Assembly (NCBI GenBank): GCA_003278065.1
Contig: QCHE01000004.1
Coordinates: 1-64,000 of the forward strand
Length of the DNA stretch: 64,000 nucleotides
Direction: 5' to 3'
Origin: Pelagibacteraceae bacterium AG-390-O04
GTDB taxonomy: Bacteria > Pseudomonadota > Alphaproteobacteria > Pelagibacterales > Pelagibacteraceae
A program made the translations under genes and the position numbers. The stretch's first letter is position 1. The number at the start of each line of letters is the position of its first letter. The notes under the pieces are model-generated. The model ran no database searches. It had not been told where the DNA came from and was given only the letters and a program-made list of their open reading frames with translations. Below, in pieces: positions 43,146 through 62,066 of the stretch.

Positions 43146-43583
43146 TTGAATATGTCAGAATCTATAGAAGAAAAATGTTTATCTAAAGGTGTAAAACTAA
43201 CTGATCAAAGAAGGATTATTGCAAAGGTAATTTCAGAATCTAAAGCAGAGTATGGAGAGTCTGATCATCCTGATGTGGATGAATTATATAGTAGAGTTTC
43301 TAAAATTGATCCAAAAATTAGTATTGCAACTGTTTATAGAACTGTAAAATTATTCGAAGAAGCGGGTATTCTAACAAAACATGATTTTAAGGGTGGGAAA
43401 GCCAGATACGAAGCAATTGTAGAAAGTCATCACGATCATTTGATAGATATTAAGACTGGTGAGATAATTGAATTTGTTGATGAAGAAATAGAGAAACTTC
43501 AAAAAAAAGTTGCTGAGAAACATGGTTATAACTTAGTAGATCATAAACTAGAACTTTACGGCGTTAAGAAAAAAACTCAATAA
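43146..43583 (+). CDS. fur: Fur-family transcriptional regulator
   Basis: GVKLTDQRRIIAKVI, ISIATVYRTVKLFEEAGILTKHDF, ESHHDHLIDIKTGEIIEFVDEEIE. Confidence 0.9.
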   Translation: MNMSESIEEKCLSKGVKLTDQRRIIAKVISESKAEYGESDHPDVDELYSRVSKIDPKISIATVYRTVKLFEEAGILTKHDFKGGKARYEAIVESHHDHLIDIKTGEIIEFVDEEIEKLQKKVAEKHGYNLVDHKLELYGVKKKTQ

Positions 43584-56918: not shown

Positions 56919-58130
56919 TTAAACCTTTTCAAAAATTAATGCAGCATTGGTACCGCCAAAACCAAAACTATTAGACATTACTGTATTTAAAGTTGCCCCG
57001 GTTTCAGTTTTTGCAACTATTGGAAATTTTTTAGCTTCCTCATCCATCTCAGTAATATTTGCTGACCCAGCAATGAAATTGTTTTTCATCATAATTAAAC
57101 AATATATTGCCTCATGAACTGATGCAGCCCCTAAAGGATGCCCTGATAAAGATTTAGTTGAACTAATTTTTGGAATATTATCTCCAAAAGTATTTTTGAC
57201 TGCATTTAGTTCTGTAATATCACCAACTGGAGTAGAAGTTCCGTGAGTATTGATATAATCAATTTTATTTTTTGCTGTTGCCATTGCCATTTTCATACAT
57301 CTAACTGCTCCTTCACCTGATGGCGCTACCATATCGTATCCATCTGAAGTTGCTCCATAACCAGTTAATTCCGCGTATATTTTCGCTCCTCTAGCTTTAG
57401 CATGTTCGTATTCTTCAAGAACTAAAACTCCGCCGCCGCCTGCAATTACAAAGCCATCTCTAGTTTTATCGTACGCTCTTGATGCTGTTTCTGGTGAGTC
57501 ATTATATTTTGATGACAAAGCCGTCATGGCATCAAACATTGCAGTCATGGCCCAATGAATTTCCTCACTGCCTCCTGCAAAGACTACATCTTGTTTACCC
57601 ATTTGAATTAATTCCATCGAATTTCCTATACAGTGTCCACTAGTTGCACAAGCTGAACTCATTGTATAGTTGGTTCCTTTTATTTTGAAAGGGACTGCGA
57701 GTGTAGCAGAAGCCGTGCTAGCCATAGTTCTTGGAACTATAAAAGGTCCCATTAATTTTGGAGTTTTAGCTCTAGTTTTATCAGCTGCTAAAATTACATT
57801 TTCGATTGAAGGTCCTCCCGAACCCATAACAATTCCAGTTTTAAAATTACTAACTTCTGTTTCTTCTAATCCAGAGTCTGCTATAGCTTCTTTCATCGCG
57901 ATATAATTATAAGCAGAACCTGAACCCATAAATCTAATAGTTTTTCGATCGATGTGATCTTCAAGTTTGATTTTTGGCTTACCATGAACATGACTTTTTA
58001 AGTTATGTTCTTTATATTCCTCACTAAACGAGATACCTGATTTTGAATTCAATAGTGATTGGTGTACTTCTTCTTGATTATTGCCTAGACAAGAGACCAC
58101 CCCTAATCCTGTAATTACTACTCTTCTCAT
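56919..58130 (-). CDS. fabB: 3-oxoacyl-[acyl-carrier-protein] synthase I
   Basis: [59 protein letters not shown]. Confidence 0.95.
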
Positions 58131-58630
58131 TATTTAAATAATCCTACTTTTAAGCTTTCAGCTGAATATATTTTTTTATCGTCTGCCAAAACCACACCAT
58201 TAGCAAGACCCACAGTAGTGCCTCCTGGTGACATTATTTTTTTCATATCAATTTCATATTTAACTAATTTTACATTTTGTAAAACTTCACCTGTAAATTT
58301 CACAGTCCCAACTCCTAAAGCTCTCCCTTTACCTGGATTACCAATCCAACCCAAGTAAAAGCCAACTAACTGCCACATAGCATCAAGACCAAGGCACCCC
58401 GGCATTACAGGATCACCATTAAAATGGCAGTCAAAAAACCAAAGATCTTTTTTAATGTCTAATTCGGCTTTTAATGAACCTTTTTTAAATGCTCCGTTGT
58501 TATCATTAATTTCTGTAATTCTATCAAACATTAGCATTGGTGGAAGAGGTAATTTAGCATTACCTGGGCCGAACAATTCGCCATTACCACAATTAATTAG
58601 CTCCTTATATGAATATGAATTTTTTTTCAT
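58130..58630 (-). CDS. fabA: 3-hydroxydecanoyl-ACP dehydratase/isomerase
   Basis: [43 protein letters not shown]. Confidence 0.97.
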
Positions 58631-58689: not shown

Positions 58690-58706
58690 TTTAGAACAAT
58701 TATAAC
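58690..58706. promoter_or_regulatory. Putative Irr box (ICE-like palindrome) upstream of irr
   Basis: TTTAGAACAATTATAAC versus ICE-type TTTAGAA-N3-TTCTAAA; 16 bp before irr ATG. Confidence 0.5.
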
Positions 58707-59153: not shown

Positions 59154-59181
59154 TTGACACTTTTTTTAGAATCATTATAAA
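59154..59181 (+). promoter_or_regulatory. Putative sigma70 promoter of katG overlapped by ICE/Irr-box-like palindrome
   Basis: TTGACA (59154-59159)-N16-TATAAA (59176-59181), with TTTAGAATCATTATAAA (59165-59181) covering spacer and -10. Confidence 0.6.
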
Positions 59182-59215
59182 GTAGAACTAAGGCTATATA
59201 ATTAAGGAGATACCT

Positions 59216-61469: not shown

Positions 61470-62066
61470 ATGACAACAGTAAGTTTTGAGGATTTTTACA
61501 AGGTGCCAGATCTTAATTTTGATATTTTAAAATTAAGAGAAGATTTAAATAAAATTTTAAAAAACAAAAGATTTAACTCTCCAGGTGTCACGCATTTTGG
61601 AGCAATACCTATAAATCAAATTCCAAATGATGAAAATTCTATAAAAGGTAATAATATAAGAGGAAAATATTGGACTATCGCAGATGATAGTGGGAAAGAA
61701 GTTTCAAGGGATATTGAAATTGATGAGTCTAAATACACTCAATTAATACCTGAATTTGAAAAAACATATTTCAAAGAAGTATATGAAACCTTGAATAACA
61801 AATTTAAATTGGGAAGAGTGAGATTATTATTGAAAGAACCTCGATCAACATTGAGTTGGCATAAAGATCCAGAATGTAGACTTCATGTGCCAATTATTAC
61901 AAATAAAGGTTGCTCAATGGTAATTGAAAATGTAGCAAAACATCTGCCAGCAGACGGAAAAGTGTGGATAACAAATAATACAAAGTATCACAATTTCTTC
62001 AATGGTGGAGAGCAGGCTCGAGTACATTTAGTTGCATGTGTCCTTGAAAGCCCTTTTAAAAGATAA
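61470..62066 (+). CDS. Aspartyl/asparaginyl beta-hydroxylase-like (2-oxoglutarate/Fe(II)) oxygenase
   Basis: RVRLLLKEPRSTLSWHKDPECRLHVPIITNKGCSMVI...GKVWITNNTKYHNFFNGGEQARVHLVACV: HxD...H...R-like arrangement. Confidence 0.65.
   Translation: MTTVSFEDFYKVPDLNFDILKLREDLNKILKNKRFNSPGVTHFGAIPINQIPNDENSIKGNNIRGKYWTIADDSGKEVSRDIEIDESKYTQLIPEFEKTYFKEVYETLNNKFKLGRVRLLLKEPRSTLSWHKDPECRLHVPIITNKGCSMVIENVAKHLPADGKVWITNNTKYHNFFNGGEQARVHLVACVLESPFKR

Follow-up and report, generated by a model that had tools for sequence, protein, structure and literature searches.

The 17-mer at positions 59165–59181 upstream of katG, the catalase-peroxidase gene of a SAR11 bacterium, is very probably a genuine, selected operator that overlaps the katG promoter, and comparative sequence evidence leads us to read it as the Irr operator controlling katG, with binding by Irr predicted. 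It is called real because the comparative evidence is decisive, not because of the statistics of the window. That an Irr operator lies on a peroxidase promoter has good support, and Irr probably controls peroxide defence in SAR11.

Genomic setting and promoter architecture of katG

The window, i.e., the whole stretch of 64,000 nucleotides analysed here, is contig C4 of a SAR11 genome of 1.06 Mb (88.6% complete); in KatG, its nearest named relatives, single-cell genomes of Pelagibacteraceae, are 95% identical. The genes fabI, fabB and fabA run leftward and are followed by irr, katG and an aspartyl/asparaginyl hydroxylase gene, all rightward (Table 1); fabI and fabB were named from their translations and fabA by model. 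The synteny marker fabA also lies within 1.5 kb of 12 of the 30 Irr genes of other Alphaproteobacteria. A second Fur-family gene, of the Fur/Mur type, is located in the window at 43185–43559, and a third, weak one on another contig (C13:8351–8695).

Table 1. Features of the irr–katG locus in the window
Feature	Position	Strand	Evidence and remarks
fabA, divergent from irr, synteny marker	58130..58630	-	TIGR01749 above cut-off
Irr-type box TTTAGAACAATTATAAC in the irr promoter, candidate autoregulation site	58690..58706	+	1 mismatch to TTTAGAANNNTTMTAAA
irr, Fur-family regulator of the Irr clade, 132 aa	58722..59120	+	Pfam FUR 3e-20; tree; NCBIfam
-35 element TTGACA of the katG promoter	59154..59159	+	Sequence; 0-1 mismatch in 66/77 SAR11 sites, spacing mostly 15-17
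Predicted Irr operator TTTAGAATCATTATAAA	59165..59181	+	Fills spacer and -10 of the katG promoter; sequence and comparative data
-10 element TATAAA	59176..59181	+	Within right half of operator; TTATAAA half conserved across SAR11
AAGGAG ribosome-binding site of katG	59204..59209	+	Sequence
katG, catalase-peroxidase, 745 aa	59216..61453	+	NCBIfam TIGR00198 and PRK15061 well above cut-off
Aspartyl/asparaginyl hydroxylase-family gene, directly 3' of katG	61470..62066	+	

The first-pass annotation of this DNA had described the 17-mer as agreeing with the ICE (Irr box) palindrome TTTAGAA-N3-TTCTAAA at 13 of 14 positions and as overlapping a katG promoter whose TTGACA and TATAAA elements are 16 bp apart, and both statements are confirmed in the sequence. 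The box in the irr promoter ends 15 bp 5' of the irr start codon. In nearly all genomes of genus g1, with or without katG, an equivalent box lies about 33–35 bp before the irr ATG; other genera that retain the katG box have lost it.

The annotation had also considered two palindromes in one AT-rich locus hard to dismiss, an argument that by itself gives no statistical support. With up to two mismatches, TTTAGAANNNTTMTAAA has 22 matches in the window compared with 21.4 expected, and with up to one mismatch it has 36 strand-hits in the whole genome compared with 34 for the reversed pattern. Without mismatch it occurs at three places in 1.06 Mb, the katG promoter among them; the other two (C3:78418 and C7:40407) were set aside, both being within coding sequence. 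Window-only and single-genome statistics are at chance level and were not used as support for the operator.

Conservation of the operator across SAR11

We searched 297 genomes of the family, detecting KatG in 208 and Irr in 216, and extracted katG upstream regions from 110 genomes. At the 89 loci with irr immediately 5' of katG, TTTAGAANNNTTMTAAA is present within 120 bp of katG as an exact match in 80 and with at most one mismatch in 86. In a separate set of named Pelagibacteraceae katG loci, the site is exact in 79/79. The annotation had proposed such a scan of other SAR11 katG promoters, and the absence of the palindrome upstream of katG in relatives, which it had named as evidence against itself, was not observed. 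Among katG loci without irr, a box within one mismatch is found in 3 of 20 SAR11 loci (P = 4×10−14, Fisher's exact test, a value that overstates independence, the genomes being related). The box is conserved at orthologous promoters, and its presence depends on that of irr.

Moreover, when the upstream regions are grouped into 17 clusters of less than 70% identity, 15 bear the box with at most one mismatch and 14 exactly (mean in dinucleotide shuffles, 0.075), and the box is kept down to about 55% KatG and 45–50% Irr identity. The columns TTTAGAA and TTATAAA are fixed while the flanks drift, with column values inflated by the choice of rows with a good box, unlike the fraction of loci with a box, which this choice does not inflate. 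The SAR11 consensus, TTTAGAAT-N-ATTATAAA, consists of an ICE-type half and a TTATAAA half. The conserved TTTAGAA sits in the spacer between −35 and −10, in which no particular sequence is needed for promoter function alone.

About ten SAR11 genomes carry katG without irr. In several of these katG comes directly after fabA, and in G130 (L115) an irr remnant with an in-frame stop is found upstream of katG. At most of the irr-less katG loci the box is gone or eroded; it has one mismatch in G177 and G267 and is exact in G006, where irr was not detected in a genome that is 83% complete, a case that counts against irr dependence. Genomes of genera g9 and g12, in which katG and Fur are present and the box is absent, were searched for Irr and gave no Irr-like match near the query's level. 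Another genome without irr, G040, has a weak Fur-family gene about 1.2 kb 3' of katG (C1:1213880–1214197).

In 24 whole genomes the refined pattern TTTAGAAYNATTMTAAA has 30 matches, compared with 3 for the reversed pattern. Of the 30, 24 are at irr/katG, and the remaining four places are not common to several genomes. At this stringency the SAR11 Irr regulon is essentially this locus, and weaker sites could be missed. Two further candidate targets were rejected: a perfect palindrome before an aprMBA-type operon in G113 is missing upstream of aprM in 20 relatives and is ascribed to chance, and a recurring one-mismatch match, found in coding sequence or between the genes for an ABC transporter ATPase and a small helix-turn-helix protein, is not promoter-like.

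In several lineages, two boxes about 31 bp apart flank the −35 element, for katG as well as for rubrerythrin. The second box is inverted and located about 31 bp (three helical turns) upstream, beside the −35, in L029, L086 and L093 and in rubrerythrin loci, 60–90 bp before the gene. Cooperative binding to such paired boxes is possible.

Exchange of katG and rubrerythrin behind irr

Among the SAR11 genomes that lack katG, a rubrerythrin gene (PF02915) lies directly behind irr in 19 of 20. Rubrerythrin is found in 47 of the 297 genomes and never together with katG, which is present in 208 (P = 3×10−30, the genomes being related). All 33 rubrerythrin promoters examined bear an Irr box within one mismatch, 25 of them exactly, compared with 0.26 in shuffles (irr–rubrerythrin loci L164–L180, L182, L183 and L460–L473); G026, for instance, has rubrerythrin directly behind irr and boxes present. 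The single exception among the 20, G266, has lost katG and retained two boxes. The downstream hydroxylase gene, of the type at 61470–62066 in the window, is still behind irr in this genome. In several genus-g4 genomes (L465–L468 and L470), a Fur-box-like sequence, GATAATGATAATCAAAA, overlaps the final codons of irr, 5' of the rubrerythrin promoter.

It is also evident that irr and the gene behind it do not always share the same history. In six genomes (G134, G174, G184, G188, G204 and G276), Irr groups with that of rubrerythrin-bearing genomes (100/100), and KatG is nested in KatG of the window type (98/95). This conflict between the Irr and KatG trees shows, at the level of sequence relationships, that an exchange of the gene behind irr has taken place. 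In the same six genomes, the DNA as far as the −35 is like that of the rubrerythrin lineage, and beyond it like that of the katG lineage (L029, L033, L036, L038, L041 and L042). These patterns suggest recombination at the promoter of the six katG loci. The reverse case is represented by G043, in which rubrerythrin stands behind an Irr of the katG type.

Irr boxes upstream of katG in other Alphaproteobacteria

The katG upstream regions from 60 genomes of other families of Alphaproteobacteria were also analysed. TTAGAAYNATTMTAA is present within 250 bp of katG exactly in 11/60 and within one mismatch in 15/60, whereas three control windows further upstream gave no exact match (2, 0 and 0 within one mismatch), the reversed pattern gave 1 and permuted palindromes a mean of 0.02. 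Many of these 60 genomes have 60–70% GC, so that the motif is very unlikely to occur by chance. Boxes within one mismatch were found only in genomes bearing Irr (15/48 vs. 0/12 in genomes without Irr, P = 0.027), and in two of the box-bearing genomes the Irr gene adjoins katG. The symmetrical form of the box is common in these other Alphaproteobacteria. In R. sphaeroides, Irr binds ccpA and mbfA and not katE (PMC3413700), which is counted against a katG operator. The class-wide boxes indicate Irr control of katG as widespread in Alphaproteobacteria and not a SAR11 oddity.

The regulator and its possible signal

The regulator encoded in the window groups within the Irr clade (99/98), together with 30 Irr genes from other Alphaproteobacteria and apart from SAR11 Fur and from PerR, the PerR rows being long branches whose exact place in the tree is unsure. 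By far the best NCBIfam models are IrrA (126.9 bits, cut-off 150) and Irr (117.7 bits, cut-off 170), with scores below these equivalog cut-offs. The 25 SAR11 Irr proteins compared all have H88–H90 of the HHH cluster, and none of the 25 has the CxxC zinc site that goes with the PerR clade. An N-terminal Cys-Pro heme regulatory motif is found in 0/25 SAR11 Irr and in 2/30 Irr of the class; this motif is of the Bradyrhizobium type and is not universal. H33, D82, H88, H90 and D101 are invariant in the 25 SAR11 and the 30 class Irr and are the equivalents of the PerR iron/H2O2 site (H37, D85, H91, H93 and D104), in which both Asp are replaced by Glu in Fur. OxyR gave no match over the cut-off in 12 SAR11-family genomes.

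We propose that Irr encoded just upstream binds 59165–59181, where a dimer lying over the spacer and the −10 would block RNA polymerase and repress katG, and that in most genomes of genus g1 the second box would act likewise at irr. The operator would belong to a regulated peroxidase slot behind irr, filled by katG or by rubrerythrin and never by both. H2O2 would inactivate Irr and so lift the repression, most likely through a PerR-style iron-catalysed oxidation at the His/Asp site (H33, D82, H88, H90 and D101), and iron or heme status would set the amount of active Irr. In other species, oxidation of Irr occurs at His63 in B. japonicum, a residue that corresponds to PerR His37 (PMC4700492), and in D. 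shibae the Irr protein falls under oxidative stress (PMC8007024). We tentatively put forward the broader view that SAR11 Irr, an Irr by descent and a PerR in mechanism and polarity, may be a PerR-type peroxide sensor and, in these OxyR-less cells, the main H2O2 regulator, governing a katG/rubrerythrin cassette that would be swapped by recombination at the operator–promoter, with the incoming enzyme at once under Irr.

The classical Irr iron/heme switch would work differently: under scarce heme or iron, Irr would accumulate and katG would be repressed to spare heme, and in iron-replete cells a heme-triggered loss of Irr would turn katG on. This switch fits the phylogenetic position of the regulator, the heme requirement of KatG and the finding that in the species studied Irr represses its targets under iron depletion (PMC3413700), but the Cys-Pro motif is absent from all 25 SAR11 Irr (though most Irr of the class also lack it), and the only relevant expression data found point the other way. 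In P. ubique, the rubrerythrin SAR11_0399, which occupies katG's place, is up and not down in iron limitation (mRNA 1.57-fold, P = 0.025, uncorrected, 24 h after iron chelation), and the Irr protein is unchanged (PMC2864753). This rise is small and weak; its direction is the reverse of that in classical Irr repression and fits a PerR-like repressor loaded with metal. Because the P. ubique effect runs counter to the classical model but is weak and uncorrected, we consider PerR-like peroxide sensing by SAR11 Irr a serious possibility, at least as likely as a heme-sensing iron switch, and the classical switch rather unlikely. The repressor over the katG promoter proposed in the annotation is supported as an Irr by phylogeny with a selected operator that tracks irr; its heme sensing and the iron switch are not supported as stated there.

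The 7-1-7 dyad is common to the Fur family, which counts for a second alternative, namely that the site is used mainly by the Fur/Mur protein of the window and not by Irr. In Magnetospirillum, Fur gave a ChIP signal at katG (PMC3251581), which points in the same direction, but this alternative is improbable: genera g9 and g12 keep fur with katG promoters that have no box, so that the box follows irr, the class-wide boxes within one mismatch are restricted to genomes with Irr, and the invariant G of TTTAGAA is ICE-type. That only a sigma-70 promoter is conserved, the palindrome being a by-product of AT-rich −10 conservation, would agree with the overlap of the right half with TATAAA and with single-window statistics at chance but is highly improbable and already contradicted by a spacer TTTAGAA kept in deeply diverged loci, by further boxes upstream of the −35 in inverted orientation and by GC-rich genomes of other families with boxes at varied distances from katG.

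Significance and comparison with known systems

In the surface ocean, where SAR11 bacteria rank among the most abundant heterotrophs, they encounter photochemical H2O2 as well as low iron, and their set of regulators is very small. The analysis names one regulator, one operator and one slot as deciding their peroxide defence, and it gives a clean genotype split, heme peroxidase or rubrerythrin, that can be compared with maps of oceanic iron and H2O2. Irr boxes were already known, as were their placement over promoters and targets of the rubrerythrin type (PMC3413700), and so was Fur binding at katG in Magnetospirillum (PMC3251581). In the literature searched, we met with no account of katG being controlled by Irr or of the irr–katG/rubrerythrin exchange; Rodionov et al. 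2006 was outside this literature, and some sites were possibly predicted earlier.

In Agrobacterium, katG is, as may also hold for SAR11, under peroxide-responsive regulators, there OxyR and LsrB (PMC11975290), which, unlike the SAR11 regulator, are LysR-type, OxyR being the one with no match over the cut-off in the 12 SAR11-family genomes. Magnetospirillum gryphiswaldense shares with SAR11 the repression of katG by a Fur-family protein in an alphaproteobacterium, predicted for SAR11 and there demonstrated by ChIP and a mutant; the regulator, however, is Fur and not Irr, and its binding motif was not printed (PMC3251581). The PerR of B. subtilis is similar to the regulator proposed here in being a Fur-family repressor with a His37/Asp85/His91/His93/Asp104-type site and an operator with a 7-1-7 dyad over a peroxidase promoter. 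At 13 of 14 positions the window site also agrees with TTATAATNATTATAA, the PerR box. In contrast to PerR, the SAR11 regulator belongs to the Irr clade and lacks the CxxC zinc site, its left half-site keeps the ICE-type G, and its H2O2 sensing is putative. Parallels are also found in the Irr/ICE regulons of Alphaproteobacteria (bfr and the rubrerythrin-like blr7895 in B. japonicum, ccpA and mbfA in R. sphaeroides), which have in common with SAR11 an Irr-clade regulator, an ICE palindrome at target promoters and targets related to iron and peroxide (PMC3413700). The SAR11 system differs from them in that its Irr lacks the heme regulatory motif, one half-site is TTATAAA and overlaps the −10, the stringent regulon is almost only the irr–katG/rubrerythrin locus, and the targets are katG or a free-standing rubrerythrin beside irr.
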